This document shows positions 27,854 through 58,700 of a stretch of 64,000 nucleotides of DNA, piece after piece. Each line of letters begins with the position of its first letter. The stretch's first letter is position 1. The DNA comes from Vibrio sinaloensis (GTDB lineage: Bacteria; Pseudomonadota; Gammaproteobacteria; Enterobacterales; Vibrionaceae): contig NZ_CP096200.1 of NCBI RefSeq assembly GCF_023195835.1, forward strand, positions 992,001-1,056,000. The letters run 5' to 3'. The translations under genes were made by a program, and so were the position numbers. The notes under the pieces were generated by a model, which did not search any database, was not told the origin of the DNA, and worked only from the letters and a program-made list of their open reading frames with translations.

Positions 27854-27974
27854 TAACAAGGCGTTTAAGGCGGATTCACAACGCTTGGTATTTTCAGTTT
27901 GAATCGGTTTTAGTGTTTACAGCACAATAGTTTAGGTAGGGTGGTTGCGTTGTTCACCACTTAACGCGGCGTTA
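27854..27974 (+). repeat. attC: attC site 7
   Basis: 121-nt site of the second type. Cut between 27971 and 27972. IS copy A begins 8 nt further on. Confidence 0.88.
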
Positions 27975-28045
27975 TACGTCCGAGTACCCCACGTTTAGTA
28001 GACACTTTACAAAGTTAGATCTAGGGTCTAATTGAGAGGTGATTT

Positions 28046-28354
28046 ATGGCTAAACATCGTAATCCAGCGTACACCGAAGAGTTCCGCAAAGAAGCAGTGC
28101 GCCTGGCCAGTCTTCCTGGCCGAACAGCCGTCTCCGTTGCCAAGGAACTGGGCATCAGTGCCCAGCAAATCCGGAACTGGAAGCGCCAGTTCACACGCCT
28201 ATCTGATAAACAGTTTAACACCTTAGACGGTGTCGATTATTCGAAGAAAGAGTCCGAAGAGCTTCGAGCGCTAAGGCGCGAGAATAAGCGACTCAAAGAT
28301 GAAATGGAATTCCTAAAAAAGGTCTCGGCGTACTTCGCGAAGCAGCAAGAGTGA
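28046..28354 (+). CDS. IS3 OrfA, copy A
   Basis: A 102-residue helix-turn-helix protein (TAVSVAKELGISAQQIRNWK) with a C-terminal leucine zipper (LRALRRENKRLKDEMEFLKK). It binds the IS ends. The slippery heptamer A AAA AAG at 28315-28321 should send some ribosomes into the -1 frame to make the OrfAB transposase; the -1 frame is open from there into OrfB. Confidence 0.92.
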   Translation: MAKHRNPAYTEEFRKEAVRLASLPGRTAVSVAKELGISAQQIRNWKRQFTRLSDKQFNTLDGVDYSKKESEELRALRRENKRLKDEMEFLKKVSAYFAKQQE

Positions 28355-29202
28355 AGTACGAGTTCATTGAAAGTTATACCAGTGAGTACTCGATTAGCTT
28401 AATGTGTCGCACGTTAGAAGTCAGTCGAAGTGGTTACTACAAGTGGTGCCATCATACGCCAAGTGAGCGTTCACAGCGGCGCGAACGCTTTGAACAACTA
28501 ATCATGTGTACCTTTGCCCAATATCGGGCGCGTTACGGTTCAGTGCGAATAGCAGAAGAGTTAAACGAAGCAGGCTATGCCTGCTGCGTGAACTATGTGG
28601 CTGATATCATGAATGAAAAAGGTGTCAGGGCTCGTAATGGTAAAGGGTTTAAATACAGCAAGGATGTGGCGGCTATGACGAATGTTGCTGATAATTTACT
28701 GCGTAGAGACTTTGAGTCTGAGGCTCCGAATCAGAAGTGGGTCACGGACATCACGTATATCTGGGTGAAGAGCCGTTGGCTCTTCTTGGCGACTGTGATG
28801 GATTTGCATTCAAGGCGCATCGTGGGTTGGTCGCTAGGGACAACCATGACCGTCGAGCTCATCACTAATGCGTTAAAAATGGCGTTTGAGTCACGTAAGC
28901 CGCCTAAGGGCGTCATTATCCACTCAGACCGGGGTGTACAATACAGAGCCTATAAATATCAAGACTTCATGCGCAAGCATGGAGGTGTACCGAGCATGAG
29001 TCGACAGGGCAACTGTTGGGATAATGCGGTGATGGAGTCGTTCTACAGTCGACTGAAAGTCGAACTGATATACGCAGAAGACTATCAAACTGTCGAAGAA
29101 GCCCGAATGGGTATCTTCGAATACATCGAGGTATTTTACAATCGCAAGAGAAGACACTCAGCGTTGGGGCATGTCAGCCCGGTTGAGTACGAAAGTATGT
29201 AG
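28351..29202 (+). CDS. IS3 OrfB transposase, copy A
   Basis: A 283-residue DDE integrase-fold domain with D in WVTDITYI, D in IIHSDRGVQY and E in NAVMESFYSRLKVE, and the HTH_21-like start. Its GTG overlaps the OrfA TGA by 4 bp, but the active protein is likely the OrfAB frameshift fusion. Confidence 0.93.
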   Translation: MKYEFIESYTSEYSISLMCRTLEVSRSGYYKWCHHTPSERSQRRERFEQLIMCTFAQYRARYGSVRIAEELNEAGYACCVNYVADIMNEKGVRARNGKGFKYSKDVAAMTNVADNLLRRDFESEAPNQKWVTDITYIWVKSRWLFLATVMDLHSRRIVGWSLGTTMTVELITNALKMAFESRKPPKGVIIHSDRGVQYRAYKYQDFMRKHGGVPSMSRQGNCWDNAVMESFYSRLKVELIYAEDYQTVEEARMGIFEYIEVFYNRKRRHSALGHVSPVEYESM

Positions 29203-29250
29203 TTATGTACTGTCTACTTTTTGTGGGGTACACCAACGTTTGAGGTAACA

Positions 29251-29634
29251 ATGATACAAGTAGAACTACCTATCGATGACAATATTGAATTACTCCTCGA
29301 AGCTATTGGTTATGAAAGGCAAGAGCAACTAAATATGGAGTTAGCTGAGTTTCTTCAATACCGTGATAAAGGTTACTTCACTCGTACTAAATATCGCCTT
29401 TCGGCTAGCGCAAATATGAATGCACATATTGAAGTTTCTATCTCTGATAATGACTATCTAGTCCTAGTGTTACAGCCAAGAGCAAAGTTAGTTCAACCTG
29501 CGATAGAACGAATAATTAGAGCATTCAATGCAGCTCGAGATTGTAACGGTAATGTTGAACCGTCTCAGTTTACTCAAGGCATATCTAAAGAAGCCGCTAG
29601 GGGTGTTAGAGTGTACTTGAACAAAAACGTATAA
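29251..29634 (+). CDS. Hypothetical protein, cassette 8
   Basis: A 127-residue acidic to neutral protein (MIQVELPIDDNIELLLEAIG...) without a signal or membrane segment. I do not recognise it. The start at 29251 lies 15 bp past IS copy A; a longer frame from 29221 begins inside the IS and is rejected. The IS cut it off from its upstream attC and may now supply or block transcription. Its TAA forms the start of attC 8. Confidence 0.6.
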   Translation: MIQVELPIDDNIELLLEAIGYERQEQLNMELAEFLQYRDKGYFTRTKYRLSASANMNAHIEVSISDNDYLVLVLQPRAKLVQPAIERIIRAFNAARDCNGNVEPSQFTQGISKEAARGVRVYLNKNV

Positions 29635-29750
29635 CAAGCAATTTAAGCAGACCCTCAACGCTTGGCATTTTCAGTTTGCAGGTAATTCAGTGGTTAAGGT
29701 GCTATGCAGAAACTATCATTGCGCGTTTCGGGCTACTTAATTGGGCGTTA
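29632..29750 (+). repeat. attC: attC site 8
   Basis: 119-nt site. Cut between 29747 and 29748. Confidence 0.88.
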
Positions 29751-29868
29751 TGCGACTGAGCAAAAATCTTCTCTGGCTCTCTTTGTCGCTCTCTCTGGCC
29801 ATCTGTTTTTCGGTGTCGGCAAGTCAGTATTGTCGGTCCAAGTTCTTGAACCAGTCAGGCAGTAAAAC

Positions 29869-30039
29869 ATGCCAAAATTCGCGGGTTGCCTCATTGGTTT
29901 TCAGAGCTAGTTGGTGGTGAGTTTCTCTGGCTCAAAGCGCTGCAATGGCAAGTTTATCGGAGCTTCATCTTCGCTGTTTATTCTCAGCGTTGAGTTTCCC
30001 GAAGCAAAAGCCGAGTCACTAGCTTAAATTCACCATTAG
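29869..30039 (+). pseudogene. Broken recurrent ORF2 (cassette 9)
   Basis: Aligned over the full 171 bp with the 56-residue family but stopped by TAG after MPKFAGCLIGFQS and again near the end. ORF1 upstream is shifted by loss of one A in the A-run after CGACTGAGC. Cassette 41 has the same lesions, so the two copies share a recent origin. Confidence 0.45.
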
Positions 30040-30176
30040 TCACTTGTTAGAAGTGAAGCTGTAACATAGTGACTTCGGCTGTTCAGTGACTCACAAAAAG
30101 TGTTTGGTTTGTTTGTGGTTTTTCGTGTCTGAGGTAATCTTCATCTGCCCAACTTGGCTTGGTCGATGAATTCGCA

Positions 30177-30294
30177 TAACAAACAATTCAAGCAGACCCT
30201 CAACGCTCGGCGATTTTGGTCTGCGTCGGGTTCTGTGTTGCAGAGGTATGCGGAAAGTGAGCCAGGGCGTTTCGGGCTACTTAATTGGGCGTTA
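30177..30294 (+). repeat. attC: attC site 9
   Basis: 118-nt site of the main type. Cut between 30291 and 30292. Confidence 0.9.
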
Positions 30295-30331
30295 TATGCT
30301 TTCAAGTTTCAAGCAATAAAAGGACTTAAAA

Positions 30332-30700
30332 ATGATTCTAAATCACGTCTCAGTTGGCGCTTCTGATGTGGTAAAAGCAGTTGGTTTTTATGACTCAGTT
30401 CTTTCTACGTTGTCTGTTAAGCGTACTCACTATATAGAAAATATCGCTGCGGCTTATGGTGAAAGCTTTGAATTTTGGGTCGGAAGTCCCTGCGAAGGAA
30501 AAGCTACATCAAGTAATGGTGCTCATATTGCTTTCAATGCTCCTTCAAAAGAAGCAGTTGACCAGTTCTATGCTACAGCTATTGAGCTGGGAGGTTCATG
30601 CGCGGGTAAGCCAGGTTTAAGACCAGAGTATGGCGAAACTTACTACGCAGCATTCGTACGTGACTTAGACGGAAACAAAATCGAAGCAGTTTCAATGTAG
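30332..30700 (+). CDS. VOC-family protein, cassette 10
   Basis: A 122-residue paralogue of the cassette 1 protein, with about ten substitutions and the same 5' leader from GTTATATGC to the AAAGGA ribosome site. Most codon differences are silent, which shows selection on the protein after duplication. Function is as for the cassette 1 copy. Confidence 0.87.
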   Translation: MILNHVSVGASDVVKAVGFYDSVLSTLSVKRTHYIENIAAAYGESFEFWVGSPCEGKATSSNGAHIAFNAPSKEAVDQFYATAIELGGSCAGKPGLRPEYGETYYAAFVRDLDGNKIEAVSM

Positions 30701-30715
30701 CTTCGAGTACGCATA

Positions 30716-30835
30716 TAACAATAAATTTAAGAGTGATTCACAACGCTCGGCGCTTTCACTTCAAGCTAGTTTGGTGTTTATGGCACAATGTTTTAGGTAA
30801 GGTGGTAGCGTTGTTCACACCTTAATTTGGCGTTA
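30716..30835 (+). repeat. attC: attC site 10
   Basis: 120-nt site. Cut between 30832 and 30833. IS copy B begins 8 nt further on. Confidence 0.88.
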
Positions 30836-30906
30836 TGTTCCCGAGTACCCCACGTTTAGTAGACACTTTACAAAGTTAGATCTAGGGTCTAATTGAGAGG
30901 TGATTT

Positions 30907-31215
30907 ATGGCTAAACATCGTAATCCAGCGTACACCGAAGAGTTCCGCAAAGAAGCAGTGCGCCTGGCCAGTCTTCCTGGCCGAACAGCCGTCTCCGTTG
31001 CCAAGGAACTGGGCATCAGTGCCCAGCAAATCCGGAACTGGAAGCGCCAGTTCACACGCCTATCTGATAAACAGTTTAACACCTTAGACGGTGTCGATTA
31101 TTCGAAGAAAGAGTCCGAAGAGCTTCGAGCGCTAAGGCGCGAGAATAAGCGACTCAAAGATGAAATGGAATTCCTAAAAAAGGTCTCGGCGTACTTCGCG
31201 AAGCAGCAAGAGTGA
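30907..31215 (+). CDS. IS3 OrfA, copy B
   Basis: Protein identical to OrfA of copy A, with the same slippery heptamer near its end. Confidence 0.92.
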   Translation: MAKHRNPAYTEEFRKEAVRLASLPGRTAVSVAKELGISAQQIRNWKRQFTRLSDKQFNTLDGVDYSKKESEELRALRRENKRLKDEMEFLKKVSAYFAKQQE

Positions 31216-32063
31216 AGTACGAGTTCATTGAAAGTTATACCAGTGAGTACTCGATTAGCTTAATGTGTCGCACGTTAGAAGTCAGTCGAAGTGGTTACTA
31301 CAAGTGGTGCCATCATACGCCAAGTGAGCGTTCACAGCGGCGCGAACGCTTTGAACAACTAATCATGTGTACCTTTGCCCAATATCGGGCGCGTTACGGT
31401 TCAGTGCGAATAGCAGAAGAGTTAAACGAAGCAGGCTATGCCTGCTGCGTGAACTATGTGGCTGATATCATGAATGAAAAAGGTGTCAGGGCTCGTAATG
31501 GTAAAGGGTTTAAATACAGCAAGGATGTGGCGGCTATGACGAATGTTGCTGATAATTTACTGCGTAGAGACTTTGAGTCTGAGGCTCCGAATCAGAAGTG
31601 GGTCACGGACATCACGTATATCTGGGTGAAGAGCCGTTGGCTCTTCTTGGCGACTGTGATGGATTTGCATTCAAGGCGCATCGTGGGTTGGTCGCTAGGG
31701 ACAACCATGACCGTCGAGCTCATCACTAATGCGTTAAAAATGGCGTTTGAGTCACGTAAGCCGCCTAAGGGCGTCATTATCCACTCAGACCGGGGTGTAC
31801 AATACAGAGCCTATAAATATCAAGACTTCATGCGCAAGCATGGAGGTGTACCGAGCATGAGTCGACAGGGCAACTGTTGGGATAATGCGGTGATGGAGTC
31901 GTTCTACAGTCGACTGAAAGTCGAACTGATATACGCAGAAGACTATCAAACTGTCGAAGAAGCCCGAATGGGTATCTTCGAATACATCGAGGTATTTTAC
32001 AATCGCAAGAGAAGACACTCAGCGTTGGGGCATGTCAGCCCGGTTGAGTACGAAAGTATGTAG
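31212..32063 (+). CDS. IS3 OrfB transposase, copy B
   Basis: Protein identical to OrfB of copy A; the DDE residues are intact. Confidence 0.93.
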   Translation: MKYEFIESYTSEYSISLMCRTLEVSRSGYYKWCHHTPSERSQRRERFEQLIMCTFAQYRARYGSVRIAEELNEAGYACCVNYVADIMNEKGVRARNGKGFKYSKDVAAMTNVADNLLRRDFESEAPNQKWVTDITYIWVKSRWLFLATVMDLHSRRIVGWSLGTTMTVELITNALKMAFESRKPPKGVIIHSDRGVQYRAYKYQDFMRKHGGVPSMSRQGNCWDNAVMESFYSRLKVELIYAEDYQTVEEARMGIFEYIEVFYNRKRRHSALGHVSPVEYESM

Positions 32064-32103
32064 TTATGTACTGTCTACTTTTTGTGGGGTACACCAACCG
32101 CAA

Positions 32104-32394
32104 TCAATCATCTAATCTTTTCATAGCTTTACGGTAAACATCGCTACGTTCGCGTTTTCCGACTGCTAAGACGGTTACAATGATTACATCGTCTTCAACT
32201 TTGTAGACGAGACGGTAGCCCGATTGACGGAGTTTAATTTTATACATGTTGTCAGCTCCAGAAAGTTTTGAAGCCGGAACATGTGGGTTATCCAAGCGCT
32301 CGATTAGCTTTTTCTTAAATTGTTGTTGCAGAGTAGAGCCAAGCTTTTTCCACTCTTTGAGTGCGCTCTTTTTAAAGTCGAGTTTATAGGTCAT
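32104..32394 (-). CDS. RelE-family toxin, cassette 11
   Basis: A 96-residue RelE-type mRNA interferase (TYKLDFKKSALKEWKKLGST, MYKIKLRQSGYRLVYKVEDD, VLAVGKRERSDVY). The basic residues and the C-terminal Tyr of RelE active sites are present. The ATG at 32394 overlaps the antitoxin end, so the two are translationally coupled. The gene reads against the cassette direction. Confidence 0.9.
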   Translation of the reverse strand: MTYKLDFKKSALKEWKKLGSTLQQQFKKKLIERLDNPHVPASKLSGADNMYKIKLRQSGYRLVYKVEDDVIIVTVLAVGKRERSDVYRKAMKRLDD

Positions 32395-32632
32395 CAATAT
32401 TTACCGAAATGCTCTCTTCAGATTCACGCTCTTTCGCAATAGCTAGTAGTTCAAGATCTTCGAGTCTGTCCATCATCATTTCGTACGCTTCTGCAGGTAC
32501 GCAATAAAATGCTGGTTCATTTCGGTTCAGTACAGCAACAGGTTCGCCATAAGCACTAGTTGCAACTTTCATAGGGTTAGCTTTCAACTCAGTAATGCTT
32601 GCAGCAACATCGGCTAAAATTCTAGTGGTCAT
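32384..32632 (-). CDS. RelB/Phd-YefM-type antitoxin, cassette 11
   Basis: An 82-residue antitoxin (TTRILADVAASITELKANPM, EPVAVLNRNEPAFYCVPAEAY) of a type common in Vibrio superintegrons. It should repress its own operon and neutralise the RelE-type toxin whose gene it overlaps by 11 bp. Confidence 0.88.
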   Translation of the reverse strand: MTTRILADVAASITELKANPMKVATSAYGEPVAVLNRNEPAFYCVPAEAYEMMMDRLEDLELLAIAKERESEESISVNIDDL

Positions 32633-32689
32633 ATAATCGGTCCCTTAAGTGGTCTTTATGTTGGTCATTTTAGCCTCAACTAAGCGGTA

Positions 32690-32810
32690 TAACAAGGCGT
32701 TTAAGAGGGATTCTCAACGCTTGGCATTTTCAGTTTGATTCAGCTTTAGTGTTTACGGCACAATGGCTTAGGTTCGGTGGTGGCGTTGTTCACCCCTTAA
32801 CGCAGCGTTA
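32690..32810 (+). repeat. attC: attC site 11
   Basis: 121-nt site of the second type. Cut between 32807 and 32808. Confidence 0.88.
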
Positions 32811-32826
32811 TGTGCTCGGAGGAAAT

Positions 32827-33273
32827 ATGGAATTTCAGAAAGTCCAAAAAGCGGACTTGGACGCAGTAACAAGGCTTGTTTCAGAGGTTTCGGCCAAGGA
32901 CGTGCTTCCACTGCTTAATGCACAAGGAAAGCAAGAGTATAAGGACAGAGTCTTACCTGACCTAGCAACCACTTTCGATGATGAGAGGTTTTCAGCATTC
33001 AAGGCTGTATCGGGTGAGGAAATACTTGGTTTTGCTGCTTTGCGTGATGGGAACTATTTAACGCACTTGTTTGTTGCTAATTCTCAGCAGGGTTCAGGGT
33101 TAGGTCGTACGCTATTGAATCATTTGCTTAATCAGACAGACGCTAGTGAGGTTAGTCTGCGTTCATCGGTGAATGCTGTTGGGTTCTACAATCGCCATGG
33201 TTTCGTAGCAACAGGCGAAGAAGCAGAGTTCAACGGAATTCGTTTCGTGCCAATGTCTTTAGTACGCACATAA
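32827..33273 (+). CDS. GNAT-family N-acetyltransferase, cassette 12
   Basis: A 148-residue acetyltransferase with the acetyl-CoA loop in LFVANSQQGSGLGRTLLNHL and the C-terminal VGFYNRHGFVATGE strand. The acceptor is unknown. GGAGGAAAT gives an excellent ribosome site 16 bp inside the cassette. A near-identical copy is in cassette 35. Confidence 0.9.
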   Translation: MEFQKVQKADLDAVTRLVSEVSAKDVLPLLNAQGKQEYKDRVLPDLATTFDDERFSAFKAVSGEEILGFAALRDGNYLTHLFVANSQQGSGLGRTLLNHLLNQTDASEVSLRSSVNAVGFYNRHGFVATGEEAEFNGIRFVPMSLVRT

Positions 33274-33390
33274 CAAACAATTTAAGCAGATTCGCAACGC
33301 TTGGCATTTTTGGTTTGAATCGGCTTTAGTGTTTACGGCGCAATGGTTTAGGAATGGTGGTGACGTTGCTCACTACTTAATTGGGCGTTA
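33271..33390 (+). repeat. attC: attC site 12
   Basis: 120-nt site overlapping the GNAT stop codon. Cut between 33387 and 33388. Confidence 0.88.
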
Positions 33391-33492
33391 TGTTACTCAT
33401 TGAAACTCAGTGAAAAATTGGAAATTAGCTCTCATCTTATGTTGCTTGCCTATCCTAAACTCTATAGGTTATTTCAACTTTGGGTATACGCT

Positions 33493-33873
33493 ATGAGTGC
33501 AGGTCGTCATGGAATCACAATTGGTATTGAGCGCATTGGCTCGGAATCCGTTTTAATGCTTAAGGCTACGGGTAAACTCACTCACGAAGACTATGAGAGA
33601 ATTGTTCCAGTCTTGGATTCTAATTTGCAAGGACTCAACTCCATGCATGTGAAAATGTTAGTCGACATTACTGAGTTTTCAGGTTGGGAGCTACGGGCAG
33701 CGTGGGACGATTTTCAGCTTGGCTTAAAGGTAGGTCTGAATATTGAGAAAATAGCGATCTACGGCGACAAAAATTGGCAAGAACTAGCCGCCAAAGTAGG
33801 CAGTTGGTTTATATCAGGTCAGATGGAATCATTTGGTAGCTACGAGTTGGCAGTAGAGTGGCTAACTGATTAA
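33493..33873 (+). CDS. SpoIIAA-like (STAS/SEC14-type) protein, cassette 13
   Basis: A 126-residue protein resembling the SpoIIAA-like family: GKLTHEDYERIVPVLDSNL, MLVDITEFSGWELRAAWDDF and IEKIAIYGDKNWQELAAKVG in the expected order. Members bind lipophilic ligands or act as anti-anti-sigma-like folds; the role is unknown. ATG 33493 fits the family start; an extension to 33400 would add about 31 residues without support. Confidence 0.78.
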   Translation: MSAGRHGITIGIERIGSESVLMLKATGKLTHEDYERIVPVLDSNLQGLNSMHVKMLVDITEFSGWELRAAWDDFQLGLKVGLNIEKIAIYGDKNWQELAAKVGSWFISGQMESFGSYELAVEWLTD

Positions 33874-33875
33874 CA

Positions 33876-33993
33876 TAACAAACAATTCAAGCAGACCCTC
33901 AACGCTCGGCGATTTTGGTTTGCGTTGGGTTTTGTGCTGCCGAGGAATGCGGAAGGTGAGTCAGGGCGTTTCGGGCTACTTAATTGGGCGTTA
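33876..33993 (+). repeat. attC: attC site 13
   Basis: 118-nt site of the main type. Cut between 33990 and 33991. Confidence 0.9.
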
Positions 33994-34109
33994 TGCGACT
34001 AAGCAAAAAATCTTCTCTATCTCTTTTTTTCGCTCTCTCTGGCTATCGGCTTTTCTGTGTCGGCAACTCTGCATTGTCGGCCCAAATTCTTGAATCACTC
34101 AGGCAGTAA
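33993..34109 (+). CDS. Recurrent cassette ORF1, 38 aa (cassette 14)
   Basis: MRLSKKSSLSLFFALSGYRL followed by a VGNSALSAQILESLRQ tail. The start codon is in the attC junction and the stop lies 3 nt before ORF2. Confidence 0.35.
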   Translation: MRLSKKSSLSLFFALSGYRLFCVGNSALSAQILESLRQ

Positions 34110-34112
34110 AAC

Positions 34113-34283
34113 ATGCCAAAGTTCGCGGGTTGCCTCATTGGTTTTCTGTATTGGTTCGTGGGGAGTTTCGCTGGAGTAAGGTGTGGCAAGCGCAAGTTTA
34201 TGGGAGCTTCATCTTCGCTGGTTGTTCTCAGCGTTGAGTTTCTCGAAGCAAAAGCTGAGTCATGCGCTGAAATTCACCATTAG
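34113..34283 (+). CDS. Recurrent cassette ORF2, 56 aa (cassette 14)
   Basis: Intact member starting MPKFAGCLIGFLYWFVGSF, so the N-terminal half is strongly hydrophobic; the tail reads VEFLEAKAESCAEIHH. Function unknown. Confidence 0.4.
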   Translation: MPKFAGCLIGFLYWFVGSFAGVRCGKRKFMGASSSLVVLSVEFLEAKAESCAEIHH

Positions 34284-34420
34284 TCACTTGTAGGAAGTGA
34301 AGCTGTAACATAGTGACTTCGGCTGTTCAGTGACTCACAAAAAGTGTTTGGTTTGTTTGTGGTTTTTCGTGTCTGAGGTAATCTTCATCTGCCCAGTTTG
34401 GCTTGGTCGATGAATTCGCA

Positions 34421-34538
34421 TAACAAACAATTCAAGCAGACCCTCAACGCTCGCCGATTTTGGTTTGCGTGGGGTTTGGTGTTACCGAGCAATGCGGAGA
34501 GTGAGCCAGTGCGTTTCGGGCTACTTAATTGGGCGTTA
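34421..34538 (+). repeat. attC: attC site 14
   Basis: 118-nt site of the main type. Cut between 34535 and 34536. Confidence 0.9.
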
Positions 34539-34656
34539 TGCGACTGAGCAAAAAATCTTCTCTATCTCTCTTTCTCGCTCTCTTTGGCAGTCGGTTCGCG
34601 GTGTCGGCAATTCAGCATTGTCGGCTCAAATTCTTGAATCACTCAGGCTGTAAAAT

Positions 34657-34827
34657 ATGCCAAATTTCGCGGGTTGCCTCATTGGTTTTCGGAGTTGGTT
34701 GGTGGTGAATTTGGCTGGCTCAAAGCGCTGTTAGAGAAAGTTTATTGAAGGTTCATCTTCGCTGGTTGTTCTCAGCGTTGAGTCTCTCGAAGCAAAAGCT
34801 CAGTCATGTGCTGAAATTCACCATTAG
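34657..34827 (+). pseudogene. Broken recurrent ORF2 (cassette 15)
   Basis: Keeps the 171-bp length and the MPNFAGCLIGF start but has TAG at KRC*RKF. ORF1 upstream is shifted by a 1-bp deletion near CAGTCGG. Confidence 0.45.
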
Positions 34828-34965
34828 TCACTTGTTGGAAGTGAAGCTGTAACATAGTGACTTCGGCTGTTCAGTGAATCACAAAAAGTGCTTGGTTTGT
34901 TTGAGGTTTTCTTTGTCTGAGGTAATCTTCATCTGCCCAACTTGGCTTATGTGCTTTAATTCGCA

Positions 34966-35084
34966 TAACAAACAATTCAAGCAGACCCTCAACGCTCGCC
35001 GATTTTGGTTTGCGTCGGGTTTGGTGTTTTCGGTGTAATGCGGGAAGTGAGCCAGAGCGTTTCGGGCTACTTAATTGGGCGTTA
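34966..35084 (+). repeat. attC: attC site 15
   Basis: 119-nt site of the main type. Cut between 35081 and 35082. Confidence 0.9.
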
Positions 35085-35200
35085 TGCGACTGAGCAAAAA
35101 ATCTTCTCTATCTCTCTTTCTCGCTCTCTCTGGCCATCGGTTTTACGGTGTCGGCAACTCAGCATTGTCGGCCCAAGTTCTTGAATCACTTAGGCCGTAA
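35084..35200 (+). CDS. Recurrent cassette ORF1, 38 aa (cassette 16)
   Basis: MRLSKKSSLSLFLALSGHRF followed by GVGNSALSAQVLESLRP. Same layout as in cassette 3. Confidence 0.35.
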   Translation: MRLSKKSSLSLFLALSGHRFYGVGNSALSAQVLESLRP

Positions 35201-35203
35201 AAC

Positions 35204-35374
35204 ATGTCAAAGCTCGCGGGTTGCCTCATTGTTTTTCTATGTTGGGTCGTGGGGAGTTTCGCTGGCGTAAAGTGTGGAAAGGGCAAGTCTATCGTTAGTT
35301 CATCTTCGCTGATTGTTCTCCGTGTTGAGTTTCGCGAAGCAAAAGCCGAGTCACTAGCTGAAATTCACCATTAG
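35204..35374 (+). CDS. Recurrent cassette ORF2, 56 aa (cassette 16)
   Basis: Intact member starting MSKLAGCLIVFLCWVVGSF with the tail VEFREAKAESLAEIHH. Function unknown. Confidence 0.4.
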   Translation: MSKLAGCLIVFLCWVVGSFAGVKCGKGKSIVSSSSLIVLRVEFREAKAESLAEIHH

Positions 35375-51314: not shown

Positions 51315-51380
51315 AACTCCAGTGAAAAGAGCAAATTAGTAGGTGCGCATAGCCCAAACCACCTATAGTGCACTGAAATA

Positions 51381-51500
51381 TAACAAACAATTTAAGAGTG
51401 ATTCAGCACGCTTGGCATTTTTGGTTTGGGGTGAATTTAGTGTTTACGGTGGTCTATTTGAGTGTCGTGATCGCGTGCTTCACACCTTAATTGGGCGTTA
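51381..51500 (+). repeat. attC: attC site 36
   Basis: 120-nt site with a divergent centre. Cut between 51497 and 51498. Confidence 0.86.
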
Positions 51501-51525
51501 TACGCTTTTGAGGAAATAGCCCAAT

Positions 51526-51954
51526 ATGAACAAGGTAGTATTCAGAAATTGCGATGAGAATAGTCAGTATTGGGTTGCTCTAGAGAAGTTGTTTCAAACA
51601 GAATGGTCTAATTTTCTGTTCGCAGATACTTATAAGCCAGAATCTAATCTTCCACCGGTAATTGTCGCTCTCAGAGACAATCAAGTTATCGGTGGTCTTG
51701 CTTGCTCGCGCTTTAAAGAACCTCATGGTGACTCAGAAGTTATTTGGTTTAATGCTGTTTATGTTTCACCAGAGTGGCGTGGTCAAGGTATTGCTAGCGA
51801 ACTGATTAACCGAGGTGTTAGCCAAGTATCAGCAGCAACTCAAAGTAACCTGTATGCTTACACCAATGTACCATCGTTGTACGAGTCATTAGGTTGGTTA
51901 GCAGTTGACATTGAAAGTGGGCTAAATCATAAGGTTATGAAAGTTTCTTTGTAG
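51526..51954 (+). CDS. GNAT-family N-acetyltransferase, cassette 37
   Basis: A 142-residue acetyltransferase: WFNAVYVSPEWRGQGIASEL is the acetyl-CoA loop and YTNVPSLYESLGWLAV the C-terminal strand. It lies in an ordinary cassette with GAGGAAATAG near the start. Substrate unknown. Confidence 0.89.
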   Translation: MNKVVFRNCDENSQYWVALEKLFQTEWSNFLFADTYKPESNLPPVIVALRDNQVIGGLACSRFKEPHGDSEVIWFNAVYVSPEWRGQGIASELINRGVSQVSAATQSNLYAYTNVPSLYESLGWLAVDIESGLNHKVMKVSL

Positions 51955-51968
51955 TGTCAGCACGCGTA

Positions 51969-52059
51969 TAACAAAGCATTTAAGAGTGATTCGCAACGCT
52001 TGGCGTTTTCGCTTCGCTCAAGTATAGCCAAGCGTCGCTCACACCTTAATGCGGCGTTA
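51969..52059 (+). repeat. attC: attC site 37 (short type)
   Basis: 91-nt site. Cut between 52056 and 52057. Confidence 0.87.
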
Positions 52060-52092
52060 TGAGCACACGCAAGAAAGGAAGTCTGCGGATAA

Positions 52093-52515
52093 ATGAAGTA
52101 CTCAGAAAGGGCAGCCCGTAGTAACGACTTCGACTTTTTGTTTGAGTTAAAGAAAGCGGCAGAATACGAGGCGGTGTCACGTGTTTTTGGTTGGGACGAA
52201 TCACTTCAGCGTCACTTGCACGAAGTTGAATGGTCTAAGGCTAAACCGACAATAATTGAAATCGATGGTAAGAGAATCGGGAGCTACCTATTCAAACCGC
52301 AGGGCGGTGGCTACTACTTCGGTCGTTTCTTTTTGCTTCCAGACTATCAAGGTAAAGGTATTGGAAGTGCTGTTATCAAAGACTGTATTGGCAAAGCGAA
52401 GTCGCAACCTATAACTCTGTGTTACCTAGTAGGTAATCAAGTCCACAGCTTATATGAGCGACATGGCTTCAGGGTTACACATCAAGATGAGCACTTTGTT
52501 CATATGTGCAACTAG
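52093..52515 (+). CDS. GNAT-family N-acetyltransferase, cassette 38
   Basis: A 140-residue acetyltransferase: RFFLLPDYQGKGIGSAVIKD is the acetyl-CoA loop, and VHSLYERHGFRVT the last conserved element. GGAAG lies 14 nt before the ATG. Substrate unknown. Confidence 0.88.
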   Translation: MKYSERAARSNDFDFLFELKKAAEYEAVSRVFGWDESLQRHLHEVEWSKAKPTIIEIDGKRIGSYLFKPQGGGYYFGRFFLLPDYQGKGIGSAVIKDCIGKAKSQPITLCYLVGNQVHSLYERHGFRVTHQDEHFVHMCN

Positions 52516-52521
52516 TGCTCA

Positions 52522-52638
52522 TAACAAATTGTTCAAGCAGACAGCTAACGTTTGGCGATTTTGGTTTGGTTGGGTTTAGTGATTACGGTAGCTTCGTTTG
52601 AGTGCAGTGGTAGTTAGCTGCTACTTAACAAGGCGTTA
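52522..52638 (+). repeat. attC: attC site 38
   Basis: 117-nt site with unusual arms (CAAATTGTTCAAGCAGACAG and TTAACAAGGCGTTA). Cut between 52635 and 52636. Confidence 0.85.
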
Positions 52639-52756
52639 TGCGACTGAGCAAAAAATCTTCTATATCTCTCTTTCTCGCTCTCTTTGGCAGTCGGTTTTCG
52701 GTGTCGGCAATTTAGTATTGTCGGCCTAAATTCTTGAATCACTCAGGCCGTAAAAC

Positions 52757-52927
52757 ATGCCAAAGTTCGTGGGTTGCCTCATTACCTTTCAGAGTCGGTT
52801 GGGGGTGAGTTTCGCTGGCTCAAAGCGCTGTATGGGCAAGTCTATCGGTAGTTCATCGTCGCTGCTTGTTCTCAGCGTTGAGTTTCCCGAAGCAAAAGCT
52901 GAGTCACTAGCTGAAAATCACCATTAG
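52757..52927 (+). CDS. Recurrent cassette ORF2, 56 aa (cassette 39)
   Basis: Intact member starting MPKFVGCLITFQSRLGVSF. ORF1 upstream is cut to 25 codons by a TAG. Confidence 0.4.
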   Translation: MPKFVGCLITFQSRLGVSFAGSKRCMGKSIGSSSSLLVLSVEFPEAKAESLAENHH

Positions 52928-53064
52928 TCACTTGTTGGGCGTTGGTCTGTAACATAGTGACTTCGGCTGTTCGGTGAATCACAAAAAGTGTTTGGTTTGT
53001 TTGAGGTTTTTCTTATCTGAGGTAACCTTTCACTGCCCAACTTGGCTTGGTCGTTGAATTCGCA

Positions 53065-53182
53065 TAACAAACAATTCAAGCAGACCCTCAACGCGTGGCA
53101 CTTTTGATTTGCGTTGGGTTTGGTGTTACCGAGCAATGCGGAAAGTGAGCCAGGGCGTTTCGGGCTACTTAATTGGGCGTTA
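53065..53182 (+). repeat. attC: attC site 39
   Basis: 118-nt site of the main type. Cut between 53179 and 53180. Confidence 0.9.
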
Positions 53183-53379
53183 TGCGACTAAGCAAAAATC
53201 CTCTATGGCTCTCTTTTTCGTTCTCTCGGGCCATCGGTTTTCCGCGTTGGCTGGTTGTGAGTTTGGCTGGCGTAAAGTGTGGAAAGGGCAAGTTTATCGG
53301 CAGTTCAGCTTCGCTGGTTTTTCTCAGCGTTGAGTTTCTCGAAGCAAAAGCTCAGCCATGTGCTGAAATTCACCATTAG
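53182..53379 (+). CDS. Deletion-fused ORF1-ORF2, 65 aa (cassette 40)
   Basis: A deletion of about 90 bp joins the start MRLSKNPLWLSFSFSRAIGF in frame to the ORF2 body VVSLAGVKCGKGKFIGSS and its tail. The cassette is 452 bp instead of about 545. The survival of an open frame across the deletion is notable but may be chance. Confidence 0.38.
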   Translation: MRLSKNPLWLSFSFSRAIGFPRWLVVSLAGVKCGKGKFIGSSASLVFLSVEFLEAKAQPCAEIHH

Positions 53380-53516
53380 TCACCTGTTGGAAGTAGGTCT
53401 GTAATATAGTGACTTCGGCTGTTCAGTGACTCACAAAAAGTGTTTGGTTTGTTTGAGGTTTTTCGTGTCTGATGTAATCTTCATCTGCCCAACTTGGCTT
53501 GGTCGGTGAATTCGCA

Positions 53517-53634
53517 TAACAAACAATTCAAGCAGACCCTCAACGCTCGCCGATTTTGGTTTGCGTCGGGTTTGGTGTTACCGAGCAATGCGGAAAGTGA
53601 GTCAGTGCGTTTCGGGCTACTTAATTGGGCGTTA
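53517..53634 (+). repeat. attC: attC site 40
   Basis: 118-nt site of the main type. Cut between 53631 and 53632. Confidence 0.9.
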
Positions 53635-53752
53635 TGCGACTGAGCAAAAATCTTCTCTGGCTCTCTTTGTCGCTCTCTCTGGCCATCTGTTTTTCGGTGT
53701 CGGCAAGTCAGTATTGTCGGTTCAAGAACTTGGACCAGTCAGGCAGTAAAAC

Positions 53753-53923
53753 ATGCCAAAATTCGCGGGTTGCCTCATTGGTTTTCAGAGCTAGTTGGTG
53801 GTGAGTTTCTCTGGCTCAAAGCGCTGCAATGGCAAGTTTATCGGAGCTTCATCTTCGCTGTTTATTCTCAGCGTTGAGTTTCCCGAAGCAAAAGCCGAGT
53901 CACTAGCTTAAATTCACCATTAG
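53753..53923 (+). pseudogene. Broken recurrent ORF2 (cassette 41)
   Basis: Same nonsense codon (GFQS*) as in cassette 9, and nearly identical to it over the whole cassette. Confidence 0.45.
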
Positions 53924-54061
53924 TCACTTGTTAGAAGTGAAGCTGTAACATAGTGACTTCGGCTGTTCAGTGACTCACAAAAAGTGTTTGGTTTGTTTGT
54001 GGTTTTTCGTGTCTAAGGTAATCTTTCACTGCCCAACTTGGCTTATGCAGGTGAATTCGCA

Positions 54062-54179
54062 TAACAAACAATTTAAGCAGACCCTCAACGCTCGGCGATT
54101 TTGGTTTGTGTTAGGTTTAGTGTTGCCGAGCAATGCGGAAAGTGAGTCAGTGCGTTTCGGGCTACTTAATTGGGCGTTA
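54062..54179 (+). repeat. attC: attC site 41
   Basis: 118-nt site of the main type. Cut between 54176 and 54177. Confidence 0.9.
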
Positions 54180-54297
54180 TGCGACTAAGCAAGAAATCTT
54201 CTATATCTCTCTTTCTCGCTCTCTTTGGCGGTCGGTTCGCGGTGTCGGCAGTTCAGGATTGTCGGCTCAAATTCTTGAATCACTCAGGCCGTAAAAC

Positions 54298-54469
54298 ATG
54301 CAAAAGTTCGTGGGTTGCCTCATTGATTTTCGGAGTTAGTTGGTGGTGAGGTTGGCTGGCTCAAATCGCTGGAAGAGCAAGACTATCGGAAGTTCTTCAT
54401 TTACTGGTCTTCCGCCGCGTCGAGTTTCTCGGAGTAAAAGTTTAGTCACTAGCTGAAATTCACCATTAG
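54298..54469 (+). pseudogene. Broken recurrent ORF2 (cassette 42)
   Basis: Starts MQKFVGCLIDFRS and stops at TAG; a further 1-bp indel lies downstream. The end resembles the degenerate copy in cassette 27. Confidence 0.45.
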
Positions 54470-54606
54470 TCACTTGTTGGAAGTTGGTCTGTAACATAGT
54501 GACTCCGGTTGTTCAGTGAATCACAAAAAGTGTTTGGTTTGTTTGTGGTTTTTCGTGTCTGAGGTAATCTTCATCTGCCCAGTTTGCCTTGGTCGATGAA
54601 TTCGCA

Positions 54607-54724
54607 TAACAAGCAATTCAAGCAGACCCTCAACGCGTGGCACTTTTGGTTTGCGTCGAGTTTTGTGTTGCCGAGTATTGCGGAAAGTGAGCCAGGGCGT
54701 TTCGGGCTACTTAATTGGGCGTTA
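54607..54724 (+). repeat. attC: attC site 42
   Basis: 118-nt site of the main type. Cut between 54721 and 54722. Confidence 0.9.
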
Positions 54725-54730
54725 TGTGTA

Positions 54731-54991
54731 TTAACTTGGATCTCTTTTTCGGTAGTAATATACGGATATACGCTGAGAAAAAAATGCTAGAGCTAGCATT
54801 GCCAACACGCCAATCACGATGAGAGCAATAAAAACGGCAGCTAAATCGTTATAACCATTAGACGCTACGTATAAGTTGACTAACTTGATTCCTAGCACCA
54901 ATATGAGAATCATCCCGATTATGGCGAACAAAAGAATGCCCCATGCATGTAGATCTGGGGATATTGGTCTTTGGTATTTCTGAGCAGCCAT
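54731..54991 (-). CDS. Small membrane protein in reverse orientation, cassette 43
   Basis: An 86-residue protein (MAAQKYQRPISPDLHAWGIL ...) with two hydrophobic helices (GILLFAIIGMILILVLGI and AVFIALIVIGVLAMLALAF) and a basic C-terminus YYYRKRDPS. It opposes the cassette direction and so needs its own promoter; GGCTATACTTG about 35 bp upstream offers a -10 box. A longer frame to 55051 lacks a ribosome site. Family unknown. Confidence 0.72.
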   Translation of the reverse strand: MAAQKYQRPISPDLHAWGILLFAIIGMILILVLGIKLVNLYVASNGYNDLAAVFIALIVIGVLAMLALAFFSQRISVYYYRKRDPS

Positions 54992-55052
54992 AATATTTAC
55001 CACTGAGCAACCTTGTATCAAGTATAGCCGAGTAACTTCTAGACTATACACA

Positions 55053-55175
55053 TAACAAAGCGTTTAAGACGGATTCCCAACGCTGGGCGGTTTCAGTTCA
55101 AAGATATGCATCAGTGTTTATGGCATAATGTCTTGAGTGCAGTGGTAGCGTTGCTCACCACTTAACGCGGCGTTA
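55053..55175 (+). repeat. attC: attC site 43
   Basis: 123-nt site of the second type. Cut between 55172 and 55173. IS copy G begins 8 nt further on. Confidence 0.88.
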
Positions 55176-55246
55176 TATGCCCGAGTACCCCACGTTTAGT
55201 AGACACTTTACAAAGTTAGATCTAGGGTCTAATTGAGAGGTGATTT

Positions 55247-55555
55247 ATGGCTAAACATCGTAATCCAGCGTACACCGAAGAGTTCCGCAAAGAAGCAGTG
55301 CGCCTGGCCAGTCTTCCTGGCCGAACAGCCGTCTCCGTTGCCAAGGAACTGGGCATCAGTGCCCAGCAAATCCGGAACTGGAAGCGCCAGTTCACACGCC
55401 TATCTGATAAACAGTTTAACACCTTAGACGGTGTCGATTATTCGAAGAAAGAGTCCGAAGAGCTTCGAGCGCTAAGGCGCGAGAATAAGCGACTCAAAGA
55501 TGAAATGGAATTCCTAAAAAAGGTCTCGGCGTACTTCGCGAAGCAGCAAGAGTGA
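55247..55555 (+). CDS. IS3 OrfA, copy G
   Basis: Protein identical to OrfA of copy A. Confidence 0.92.
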   Translation: MAKHRNPAYTEEFRKEAVRLASLPGRTAVSVAKELGISAQQIRNWKRQFTRLSDKQFNTLDGVDYSKKESEELRALRRENKRLKDEMEFLKKVSAYFAKQQE

Positions 55556-56403
55556 AGTACGAGTTCATTGAAAGTTATACCAGTGAGTACTCGATTAGCT
55601 TAATGTGTCGCACGTTAGAAGTCAGTCGAAGTGGTTACTACAAGTGGTGCCATCATACGCCAAGTGAGCGTTCACAGCGGCGCGAACGCTTTGAACAACT
55701 AATCATGTGTACCTTTGCCCAATATCGGGCGCGTTACGGTTCAGTGCGAATAGCAGAAGAGTTAAACGAAGCAGGCTATGCCTGCTGCGTGAACTATGTG
55801 GCTGATATCATGAATGAAAAAGGTGTCAGGGCTCGTAATGGTAAAGGGTTTAAATACAGCAAGGATGTGGCGGCTATGACGAATGTTGCTGATAATTTAC
55901 TGCGTAGAGACTTTGAGTCTGAGGCTCCGAATCAGAAGTGGGTCACGGACATCACGTATATCTGGGTGAAGAGCCGTTGGCTCTTCTTGGCGACTGTGAT
56001 GGATTTGCATTCAAGGCGCATCGTGGGTTGGTCGCTAGGGACAACCATGACCGTCGAGCTCATCACTAATGCGTTAAAAATGGCGTTTGAGTCACGTAAG
56101 CCGCCTAAGGGCGTCATTATCCACTCAGACCGGGGTGTACAATACAGAGCCTATAAATATCAAGACTTCATGCGCAAGCATGGAGGTGTACCGAGCATGA
56201 GTCGACAGGGCAACTGTTGGGATAATGCGGTGATGGAGTCGTTCTACAGTCGACTGAAAGTCGAACTGATATACGCAGAAGACTATCAAACTGTCGAAGA
56301 AGCCCGAATGGGTATCTTCGAATACATCGAGGTATTTTACAATCGCAAGAGAAGACACTCAGCGTTGGGGCATGTCAGCCCGGTTGAGTACGAAAGTATG
56401 TAG
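55552..56403 (+). CDS. IS3 OrfB transposase, copy G
   Basis: Protein identical to OrfB of copy A. Confidence 0.93.
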   Translation: MKYEFIESYTSEYSISLMCRTLEVSRSGYYKWCHHTPSERSQRRERFEQLIMCTFAQYRARYGSVRIAEELNEAGYACCVNYVADIMNEKGVRARNGKGFKYSKDVAAMTNVADNLLRRDFESEAPNQKWVTDITYIWVKSRWLFLATVMDLHSRRIVGWSLGTTMTVELITNALKMAFESRKPPKGVIIHSDRGVQYRAYKYQDFMRKHGGVPSMSRQGNCWDNAVMESFYSRLKVELIYAEDYQTVEEARMGIFEYIEVFYNRKRRHSALGHVSPVEYESM

Positions 56404-56486
56404 TTATGTACTGTCTACTTTTTGTGGGGTACACCATTTACCAATCAAGATCATCACCCTAGTTTTTATTTCGGGTGATGTCTTCG

Positions 56487-56783
56487 CTACAAGTGGTTTT
56501 GTGGGAGTTGTGATTGACCAAGTACAGCCACAACTAAAATAAAACCGTCTTCTTTTGTAAAGTAAGCTGTGTGTTTTCCTACCGGAAAAAAGAAGCCGCT
56601 TGGATAAATCTCATCGCAACTGCGACCTACGGCTGGATTATCGGCGAGCATTTGAAACCCAGTTAGCAATGTATCTTTATAGTTGTTCCACTGCATTTCA
56701 GAAAAGTTATTGACGGTATAACTTTTAATTTTTCGTAAATGAGCCTGAGCCAATTTACTTAGTTTGTATTTATTCTTTTGCAT
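56487..56783 (-). CDS. ParE/RelE-family toxin, cassette 44
   Basis: A 98-residue paralogue of the cassette 7 toxin with four substitutions (for example IKSYTVN, MQWNNY, YPSGFFF). Many more silent changes than replacements separate the genes, so both copies were under protein-level selection. Reversed in the array. Confidence 0.88.
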   Translation of the reverse strand: MQKNKYKLSKLAQAHLRKIKSYTVNNFSEMQWNNYKDTLLTGFQMLADNPAVGRSCDEIYPSGFFFPVGKHTAYFTKEDGFILVVAVLGQSQLPQNHL

Positions 56784-56789
56784 AGTGGG

Positions 56790-57032
56790 TTACAAGGCGC
56801 TTAGGAAATCTTCACCATCAACTACATTGCCTTGTGCTAAGTCTTGTTTAGCCGACTCGAAACAATGTTTAAGGTAATCAGTTTTCATTGCCTCTAGTTC
56901 TTCATAGTCTTTGATAGACATTACCACTACGGCATCTTTACTGTTTTTGCTAATCTTTACTGGCTCACGTTGGGCGCTTAGAAGCAACTCACCAAAGTTA
57001 CGCTTTGCATCATTTGCTGTTAGTGTGTGCAT
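56790..57032 (-). CDS. Phd/YefM-family antitoxin, cassette 44
   Basis: An 80-residue paralogue of the cassette 7 antitoxin (changes: SIKDY, MKTDY, FLSAL). The ATG at 57032 follows GGAG; a 2-codon longer reading is unsupported. The promoter boxes TTGACC and TATAAT are kept upstream. Confidence 0.88.
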   Translation of the reverse strand: MHTLTANDAKRNFGELLLSAQREPVKISKNSKDAVVVMSIKDYEELEAMKTDYLKHCFESAKQDLAQGNVVDGEDFLSAL

Positions 57033-57127
57033 ACTCAATCTCCAAATTTGGAATTACAGTAAGATTATAGTTTGTCGCACAAAATGGTCAATACGATTGA
57101 ATCGTGCGATTTGTGTGAAATGTAAAC

Positions 57128-57247
57128 TAACAAGCAATTTAAGAGGGATTCACAATGCTTGGCACTTTCACTTCAAGCTAGTTTAGTGTTTATGGCACAA
57201 TGCTTTAGGTAGGGTGGAGGCGTTGTTCACCCCTTAATGGGGCGTTA
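57128..57247 (+). repeat. attC: attC site 44
   Basis: 120-nt site. Cut between 57244 and 57245. Confidence 0.88.
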
Positions 57248-57265
57248 TAACACAAAATCAAATCC

Positions 57266-57294
57266 TTGCTCAAAATCGTGACTTGAACTATTAT
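57266..57294 (+). promoter_or_regulatory. Promoter of the cassette 45 toxin-antitoxin operon
   Basis: TTGCTC (57266-57271) and TATTAT (57289-57294) lie 17 bp apart. A direct repeat TTGTACG / TTGTACT follows and may be the antitoxin operator. Confidence 0.6.
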
Positions 57295-57327
57295 TTGTAC
57301 GTTATTTTGTACTGACTGGAGTTCAAT

Positions 57328-57609
57328 ATGAGCCGTATTCATTTCGATCAAGATATTCAGCCATTATCTGAATTTCGTGCAGGTGTAGCTTCTTACATCA
57401 AACAAATCAATGAGACTCGCCGCCCATTGGTGATCACACAACGTGGTAAAGGTGTAGCAGTTGTTCTCGATGTTGCAGAGTATGAAGCAATGCAAGAGAA
57501 AATCGAACTACTAGAAGAAATGCGCACAGCTGAAGCTCAATTAGCTTCAGGTCTTGGTGTTTCCAATGATGATGCTCGTGCTCAAGTATTAGGGCGCATT
57601 AAGAAATGA
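57328..57609 (+). CDS. Phd/YefM-family antitoxin, cassette 45
   Basis: A 93-residue antitoxin: IQPLSEFRAGVASYIKQINE, RPLVITQRGKGVAVVLDVAE, then a helical toxin-binding end. It overlaps the toxin start by 4 bp (ATGA). ACTGGAG precedes the ATG. Confidence 0.9.
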   Translation: MSRIHFDQDIQPLSEFRAGVASYIKQINETRRPLVITQRGKGVAVVLDVAEYEAMQEKIELLEEMRTAEAQLASGLGVSNDDARAQVLGRIKK

Positions 57610-57893
57610 AAGTAGTTTGGTCTCCTTTAGCGCTTCAGAAGCTAGGCGATGCAGCGGAATTTATTTCTTTGGATAATCCATCTGCCGCAGAAAAGTGGGT
57701 GAACGAAGTTTTTGATAAAACTGAACTACTTGGAAGTATGCCTGAAATGGGGCGCTTTGTTCCTGAAATGCCCCATACGAATTATCGCGAAATCATTTTT
57801 GGTCACTATCGTATTATCTACAGCTTAACTCATGAGATCCGCGTACTAACAGTACGTAATTGTCGTCAAATGTTGTCGGAAGATGATGTATAA
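57606..57893 (+). CDS. RelE/ParE-family toxin, cassette 45
   Basis: A 95-residue toxin: VVWSPLALQKLGDAAEFISL, MPEMGRFVPEMPH, YREIIFGHYRIIYSL and a VLTVRNCRQML end, the ParE/RelE pattern with GR and YRIIY. Coupled to the antitoxin. Confidence 0.9.
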   Translation: MKVVWSPLALQKLGDAAEFISLDNPSAAEKWVNEVFDKTELLGSMPEMGRFVPEMPHTNYREIIFGHYRIIYSLTHEIRVLTVRNCRQMLSEDDV

Positions 57894-57903
57894 AACTGTG
57901 TTA

Positions 57904-58021
57904 TAACAATCAATTCAAGCAGACCCTCAACGCTCAGCACTTTTGGTTTGCGTCGAGTTTGGTGTTGCCGAGCAATGCGGAAGGTGAGTCAGTGCGTTTC
58001 GGGCTACTTAATTGGGCGTTA
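57904..58021 (+). repeat. attC: attC site 45
   Basis: 118-nt site of the main type. Cut between 58018 and 58019. Confidence 0.9.
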
Positions 58022-58059
58022 GCTTACTTAACGGAATATTTGAATTACAAGGAAGTAAT

Positions 58060-58128
58060 ATGTTTCGAGACATGAGTTCTCATATATCGGGAAAATTGGT
58101 ATTAGTGTTATTTACCATGGCAAGTTAG
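58060..58128 (+). CDS. 22-codon ORF at the start of fused cassette 46
   Basis: ATG after CAAGGAAG; the frame MFRDMSSHISGKLVLVLFTM ends in a TAG formed by the start of a second cassette (AAGTTAGCC). It is probably the truncated 5' end of a cassette gene whose remainder and attC were deleted. Confidence 0.4.
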   Translation: MFRDMSSHISGKLVLVLFTMAS

Positions 58129-58147
58129 CCGTCAAAATGGAGAAAAC

Positions 58148-58576
58148 ATGGAAGTACAATTTTTAGAGAAAAATTCTGATTACAAGTCAGTCCTAGAAGT
58201 GTTGTTACAACTTCGCCCAAATTACAACTTAGATACTTTGTCTGGTCAGATCGAGAAGCAGCAATCAAATGGTTACCAAGTCGTCTAGGTCAAATCGCCA
58301 GAAGGCGTACTAGCAGCAGGCTTTAGCGTAGGTGAAAAGCTTGCTTGGGGTAAGCATATTTACATTGAAGACTTGGTAACTAATGCGCAATTTCGTTCGA
58401 GTGGTGTAGGCAAATTTATTATCGATTGGTTTAAAACATATGCTTTAGAAAGCGGTTGCGAACAAATACATTTGGATTCTGGTGTTCAGCGTTTTCTAGC
58501 ACATTAGTTCTATTTACGCGAAGGTTTCAATATCGCTAGTCACCACTTTTCTATAGTTGGCGTCCAAAACGGCTAA
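58148..58576 (+). pseudogene. GNAT acetyltransferase pseudogene, cassette 46
   Basis: Clear relative of the cassette 33 gene over its full length with no frameshift, but two in-frame TAG codons (QVV*VKS near 58286 and LAH*FYL near 58505) and loss of one Ala codon. The ribosome site GGAGAAAAC is kept. Both stops are amber, each one base from the sense codon in cassette 33. Confidence 0.85.
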
Positions 58577-58694
58577 CAAAGCGTTTAAGACGGATTCACA
58601 ACGCTTGGCATTTTCGGTTTGCAGTAAATTTAGTGGTTAAGGCACAATGGTTTAGGTAGGGTGGTTGCGTTGCTCACCACTTAACGCAGCGTTA
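58574..58694 (+). repeat. attC: attC site 46, last of the array
   Basis: 121-nt site of the second type. Cut between 58691 and 58692. The truncated IS copy H follows. Confidence 0.88.
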
Positions 58695-58700
58695 TGCGAC

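Follow-up and report, generated by a model that had tools for sequence, protein, structure and literature searches.

Why should an insertion sequence (IS) stand again and again at the cassette junctions of an integron, and what does its transposase recognise there? The question is raised by a 64,000-nucleotide stretch of Vibrio sinaloensis DNA (positions 992001-1056000 of contig 2, in a genome of two contigs and 4,167,209 bp; hereafter the window), whose integron array carries repeated copies of an IS3-type element of 1256 bp. In our judgement this element is probably a member of an IS3-family clade that is specialised for integron attC sites and whose transposase would read the right core of attC as duplex DNA. 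An earlier note, made from the letters of the window, had counted eight copies of 1256 bp. BLAST within the window confirmed the number but not the length: seven copies are full and the eighth is truncated, all on the + strand (Table 1). A search of the whole genome returned 8 matches, every one inside the integron of the window, which bears out the note's statement that none is seen in the core DNA of the window. Five of the full copies (27980, 30841, 42102, 44941 and 55181) are mutually identical, as are the two at 35636 and 49740, which differ from the others at 15 nt.

Each of these seven left ends follows GCGTTAT+NNNN, that is, it lies 8 nt past the G^TT cut of attC (+8), while the left end at 58701 follows GCGTTATGCGA+C, with one extra base (+9); both offsets are those given by the note. 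Among same-genus genomes, 28 of 227 (the window genome included) had an IS match at 1e-30, and copies were subsequently listed in 30 genomes. When distances were tabulated over these nucleotide-level relatives (Vibrio and one Aliivibrio), as the note had proposed, the offset proved nearly fixed: 54 of the 61 distinct readable left ends, the window's 8 included, were at +8, four at +9 and three elsewhere. Left ends with agreeing 40-nt flanks were merged for this count, and removal of three rows belonging to a more distant group (L066, L072, L193) reduced it from 64 to 61. The +8 rows include a weak one (L026, a 69-bp remnant, 79%) and one that is not at an attC (L177, in genome G189). The three exceptions are L140, an inverted off-attC copy in genome G034; L137:3413, also from G034, with a flank that is rearranged; and L153, a fragment of ~85 bp. 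All 58 rows at +8 or +9 share one orientation. The +8 position lies far beyond chance, because GTTAN was found at other single offsets in the flanks of the 54 rows in only 28 of 5940 cases, and random insertion was rejected on this comparison.

An attC covariance model (R1), built on 23 of the 38 IS-free attC of the window, gave a match ending directly ahead of the IS in 36 of the 41 loci tested. The five misses were L009, where the IS adjoins only the right half of an attC; L174, which by eye has a short attC; the L026 remnant; and L177 and L038 (off-target). Seven of the eight occupied attC in the window were among the 300 of 514 model matches listed. L141 resembles an attC by eye, as L174 does; L174 has no model match, and the L141 junction has none among the 300 of 514 matches listed.

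Exact 4-bp target-site duplications (TSDs) flank 21 of the 48 two-ended copies, compared with a mean of 2.1 and a maximum of 10 in 2000 random re-pairings. They comprise 14 different sequences, and a short duplication of 4 bp agrees with the IS3 family. In the window, the duplications at +5 to +8 that the note had described (ACGT, GTTT and GCGA) are exact in three of the seven full copies; the other four have non-matching flanks, which they probably exchanged by recombination between copies. The empty site is known because the flanks of the copy at 44941, when joined as GCGTTATGCGA^CTAAGCAAAAAATC, match IS-free junctions of the same array.

Domain searches agreed with the note's description of a DDE element of the IS3 family, and the end positions and TSDs with its insertion beside the attC right core, the same position recurring across species. 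OrfA matched HTH_Tnp_1 (3.1e-15) and OrfB matched rve (2.2e-27) and NF033516 (340.1 bits, cut-off 160). Since OrfB matched rve/DDE-type models only, and not the DEDD transposase type of the IS1111-attC group, membership of IS1111 was rejected. The DD35E spacing of OrfB was counted by eye from the letters, and a comparison of OrfB with solved structures by sequence gave no match. In the IS3 family, a -1 frameshift at an A6G heptamer yields OrfAB. Here AAAAAAG occurs near the end of orfA and the OrfB frame is open across 299 aa; such a frameshift may operate. Terminal inverted repeats in this family end in 5'-TG...CA-3'; the right end of the present IS (...ACACCA) fits this pattern while the left end (CCGAG...) does not, with GTACCCCAC and GTGGGGTAC inverted. 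Across the clade, left ends (CCGAG, CAGTG, CCAAG, AGGAC) are without the 5'-TG of ISEc15 ends and right ends retain CA-3', an asymmetry that could determine orientation. The element is classed with IS3 on account of its proteins and as attC-directed on account of its behaviour.

Contrary to what the note had supposed, insertion is not restricted to cassette junctions. In the same genus, two copies were found outside integrons, neither with an attC model match; their flanks are not unrelated, as both still abut GGCGTTAT and both have matching TSDs. The G034 copy lies between DUF3080 and MatE genes (TSD ACCT/ACCT), with GGCGTTAT beside its right end, and is hence inverted. The G189 copy interrupts a gene with an EAL domain (downstream part, 4e-44) at the site GGGCGTTAT|GAGG; its halves stand on two contigs that share GAGG and across which the reading frame continues, and they would thus form one locus. 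The G034 copy is the cleaner off-attC case, since a weak attC-like foot is present at the site in G189. In these insertions a short core was thus enough at least once, and probably twice. Among the options that the note had left side by side (duplex core, folded attC or IntI-bound DNA), they favour the duplex core as sufficient and the attC context as an enhancer.

More distant members, with 52-62% OrfB identity (from Shewanella, Pseudoalteromonas, Alloalcanivorax, Marinimicrobium, Gilvimarinus and others), had their ends read by hand. Readable left ends numbered 19, of which 13 stand at +8 (L062 of Shewanella; L067; L070 of Alloalcanivorax; L071, L072 and L073; L074 of Marinimicrobium; L075 of Pseudoalteromonas; L092 of Gilvimarinus; L135 and L229 on one Pseudoalteromonas plasmid; L193; L213), one is at +9 (L215) and five have no core. 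When the bottom strand is folded, 4-6 pairs close the fold on the core in L062, L067, L071, L073, L074, L075, L213 and L229, and no such pairs form in L070, L072, L193 and L135. This fold test is rough, because the L213 fold is unstable (z +1.1) and L135 is unpaired although the model scores it as an attC (128.5 bits). Many attC of other genera escape this model, which is of Vibrio type, and it therefore does not establish L193 and L213 as off attC. A tree of 61 of the 95 distinct OrfB sequences (with no row for L070, L092, L213 or L215) placed 44 rows in one IS3 clade with support of 100/100 and 17 outgroup rows outside it. Because core+8 rows occur in each of the four main branches, attC-core targeting is best read as ancestral to the clade. 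The targeting label needs nine changes on this tree, a number inflated by six unknown-end rows counted as another group, and four core-less rows are placed among the core+8 rows.

Several observations weigh against the explanation by a specialised clade that reads the duplex core. The core-less distant left ends (L060, L061, L063, L064 and L065/L066, the last two being one flank) include three, L063, L064 and L065/L066, with exact TSDs at non-core sequences; L060, though core-less, is surrounded by many attC model matches. The strict attC targeting proposed in the note does not hold, given the two same-genus copies off attC. Nor is orientation absolute: the single direction that the note described applies to all 8 window copies and to the 58 rows at +8 or +9, but not to one of the two off-attC copies (G034) or to one Gilvimarinus right end, small numbers though these are. 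No exact TSD flanks 27 of the 48 two-ended copies, four of the seven in the window among them. In one ISEc15 flank (L233), GTTAG lies closer to the IS than +8 by one base, and a single match of this kind may be due to chance. At the G189 site, TAACG ~50 nt upstream of CGTTA gives an attC-like foot of 5 pairs (-6.0 kcal/mol). Finally, GGCGTTAT occurs 183 times in the window genome; 32 occurrences are in the window, all within the array, and none of the 151 outside the array bears an IS. All seven insertions at this 8-mer thus fall in the array (hypergeometric 2.8e-6 if the seven were independent). GGCGTTAT alone is therefore no predictor of sites, and some further preference must come from the attC arms, from IntI, from the DNA context or from selection.

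The alternative that best survives these points, one that we regard as unlikely but deserving of attention, is that the transposase reads a folded attC (cruciform or single-stranded) or an IntI-bound attC and makes its cut at the hairpin foot, the core being incidental. The +5 to +8 slot does adjoin the R''-R' stem of the consensus fold on its outer side, and the confinement of the seven insertions to attC is what such recognition would give, as is the common orientation of the 58 rows, inverted cases occurring at sites without an attC model match. The G034 copy argues the other way, as its site combines a core and an exact TSD with no model match and just 2 foot pairs. The G189 foot shifted weight from the duplex core towards the fold, even though that site has no model match either and its fold is weak. 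A copy in V. diabolicus (L051) follows the right half of an attC only, which speaks for the core unless the left half was deleted later. In a control of the fold test, 34 of the 38 attC without an IS had 5-6 foot pairs, as against 1 of 12 core sites from outside the array; its discrimination is imperfect, as L135 has 0 foot pairs, and L063 and the off-attC site of G189 have 5.

Under duplex-core recognition, the transposase OrfAB, presumably produced by the -1 frameshift, would itself recognise the right core (G)GCGTTAR and make a 4-bp staggered cut right past it, which spans +5 to +8 counted from the G^TT point of IntI cleavage. The IS inserts with its left end towards the core, and so lies within the downstream cassette, close to its 5' end and pointing the way of the array. 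Insertion keeps G^TTAT and attC intact, and because both attC and the integrase cut remain unharmed the IS would stay cargo of a still-mobile cassette. In genome G150, the same IS-loaded cassette is present twice (L186 and L179, the IS being shortened to 1187 bp). The identity of the two begins with GGCGTTAT ahead of the IS, takes in the cassette and ends with its terminal GGCGTTATG; the outer sequences differ on both sides. The duplicated stretch is the unit that IntI would move, and IntI may have made the duplicate. In the window, the copy at 30841 precedes a cassette ~96% identical to the G150 one over its first 600 nt, which suggests that IS-loaded cassettes are common to different species. 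The IS can thus spread by its own transposase and probably also as a passenger of cassette moves. The three G150 copies L172, L179 and L186 all lack the same internal stretch and have two TSDs, GTGC and ACCG; such a copy is defective and may have moved in trans.

G150 is also the one clear case for the idea that copies were multiplied from one founding insertion by IntI-mediated cassette duplication and not by transposition. We consider this highly improbable, as identical IS copies stand ahead of different cassettes and the exact TSDs differ (14 sequences overall, three in the window); duplication as the sole source was rejected on account of the different TSDs. Least probable of all is near-random insertion with selection retaining copies at silent junctions: most cassettes in large arrays are reported to be unexpressed (PMC11023631), and insertions elsewhere may be purged, yet the position is exact to the base for 54 of 61 left ends and a single base off for 4, both same-genus non-integron copies likewise abut a core, and other intra-cassette positions, which should be tolerated too, are rare among the copies read.

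Literature searches, with most subscription papers outside their scope, found no attC-specialised IS3 element. The IS1111-attC group (ISPst6, ISKpn4; IS1111/IS110 families) targets the attC of gene cassettes (PMC11187229; cited in PMC12444791), as this IS does. Those elements use a DEDD transposase and a seekRNA from a sizeable non-coding region (PMC11187229), whereas the present IS has a DDE-type transposase, 4-bp TSDs and just 66 nt of non-coding DNA ahead of orfA and 33 nt past orfB. IS1397, ISKpn1 and ISPsy8 are IS3 elements that strongly prefer REP, a repeated palindromic target, and for two of them, IS1397 and ISKpn1, specificity is attributed to the transposase (PMC1525189). Family and type of target are thus shared; by their descriptions, the two are set apart by the target itself, REP in one case and mostly attC right cores in the other. 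Group IIC-attC introns enter attC with a typical orientation; they are retroelements that lie opposite to the cassettes and use the bottom-strand hairpin (PMC7923331), while this IS is of DDE type and points with the cassettes. The superintegron of V. cholerae N16961 likewise holds IS3-family copies inside a Vibrio cassette array, of 1261 bp and with recombination between copies. By description they are set apart from this IS, since one copy lies in a cassette coding sequence, directions are opposite and no TSD is reported (PMC11023631). IS3-family transposases have also been described close to the last cassette in two Vibrio arrays (PMC1382264), and may be this element.

The first named relative among the 60 matches listed, from a search limited to 5000 records, was of the ISEc15 type (46.5% OrfB identity), with left end TGGAGTGACCCC and right end GGTCACTCCA as against CCGAG...ACACCA. 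Five ISEc15 plasmid loci, with three distinct left-flank types, showed no core at +8; in two of the five the same flank recurs, and this flank is a further copy of the IS end. Plasmid copies of the present IS are annotated only as 'IS3 family transposase' or 'transposase', while ISEc15 copies carry the element name.

If the core is read by the transposase, this would be a second, apparently protein-read, form of attC targeting beside the RNA-guided IS1111-attC elements, and two unrelated transposases could be compared at the same site. It would explain how IS build up in cassette arrays without breaking cassettes, and suggests that IS travel between genomes within cassettes; the copies also provide repeats on which deletion and inversion of arrays can draw. 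Thanks to the off-target sites, the choice between duplex and hairpin can be tested directly. A fuller proposal, which we advance tentatively and rate as somewhat short of probable, is that this DDE lineage is an integron specialist that reads the core on double-stranded DNA, draws orientation and efficiency from the attC arms or IntI, keeps the cut site working, makes cassettes doubly mobile and has spread through gammaproteobacterial integrons.

The host array is longer than the interval 27972..58700 given in the note, with intI, an attI-like core and 46 attC (Table 1). Its attC cores were chosen by eye among pattern matches.

Table 1. Coordinates of the IS copies, their genes and the host integron in the window.
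Feature	Position	Strand	Remarks
IntI (integron integrase) gene	22250..23281	-	Pfam Phage_integrase 1.8e-40, Phage_int_SAM_4 1e-26; putative IntI from its place beside the array
attI-like core GCGTTAT, before first cassette	23443..23449	+	putative; first GCGTTAT downstream of intI
Cassette array, 46 attC	23868..58695	+	R' cores GCGTTA(T/G/A) at 23987 to 58689; 8 IS-bearing, 38 IS-free
IS copy 1	27980..29235	+	1256 bp; target GTTAT/ACGT; TSD ACGT/ACGT
orfA	28046..28354	+	102 aa; helix-turn-helix, HTH_Tnp_1
A6G heptamer	28315..28321	+	possible -1 shift from orfA to orfB; predicted fused OrfAB
orfB	28351..29202	+	283 aa; DDE transposase, rve; NF033516 transpos_IS3, 340 bits
IS copy 2	30841..32096	+	as copy 1; flanks left GTTC, right ACCG; no TSD
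IS copy 3	35636..36891	+	15 nt differences from copy 1; TSD GTTT/GTTT
IS copy 4	42102..43357	+	as copy 1; flanks left GTGC, right GCGA
IS copy 5	44941..46196	+	as copy 1; TSD GCGA/GCGA
IS copy 6	49740..50995	+	as copy 3; flanks left GTTT, right ATTT
IS copy 7	55181..56436	+	as copy 1; flanks left ATGC, right TTTA
IS copy 8	58701..59089	+	3'-truncated remnant, about 386-389 bp; left end 9 nt past cut

Many cassettes of the array share a GCGACTGAGCAAAAA / GCGACTAAGCAAAAA start (24564, 29745, 33988-35079, 37463, 38868-39413, 40970 and 52633-54174), and several of these repeat about every 545 bp as a family of similar cassettes.

Elsewhere, the G034 locus L137 (C1:81158-85203) holds two IS copies that face opposite ways at a distance of ~1.5 kb; attC matches lie on both strands, between the copies and around them, and the arrangement resembles a rearrangement in the array. 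The copy L137:3413, whose right flank is rearranged, could equally be an inverted insertion at the start of a cassette. A search of phage records for the IS gave no match, and a scan of viral records yielded 12 loci. In no E. coli record did the match reach 80% of the IS, the 20 rows listed being 158-bp pieces; in two E. coli genomes (L211, L212) the annotated IS3 transposase gene is in two parts, with a gene for a group II intron reverse transcriptase between them. Three Vibrio plasmids (L131, L133, L134) bear attC arrays that carry the IS, and the neighbours in L134 include GNAT acetyltransferases and an aminoglycoside phosphotransferase-family gene.

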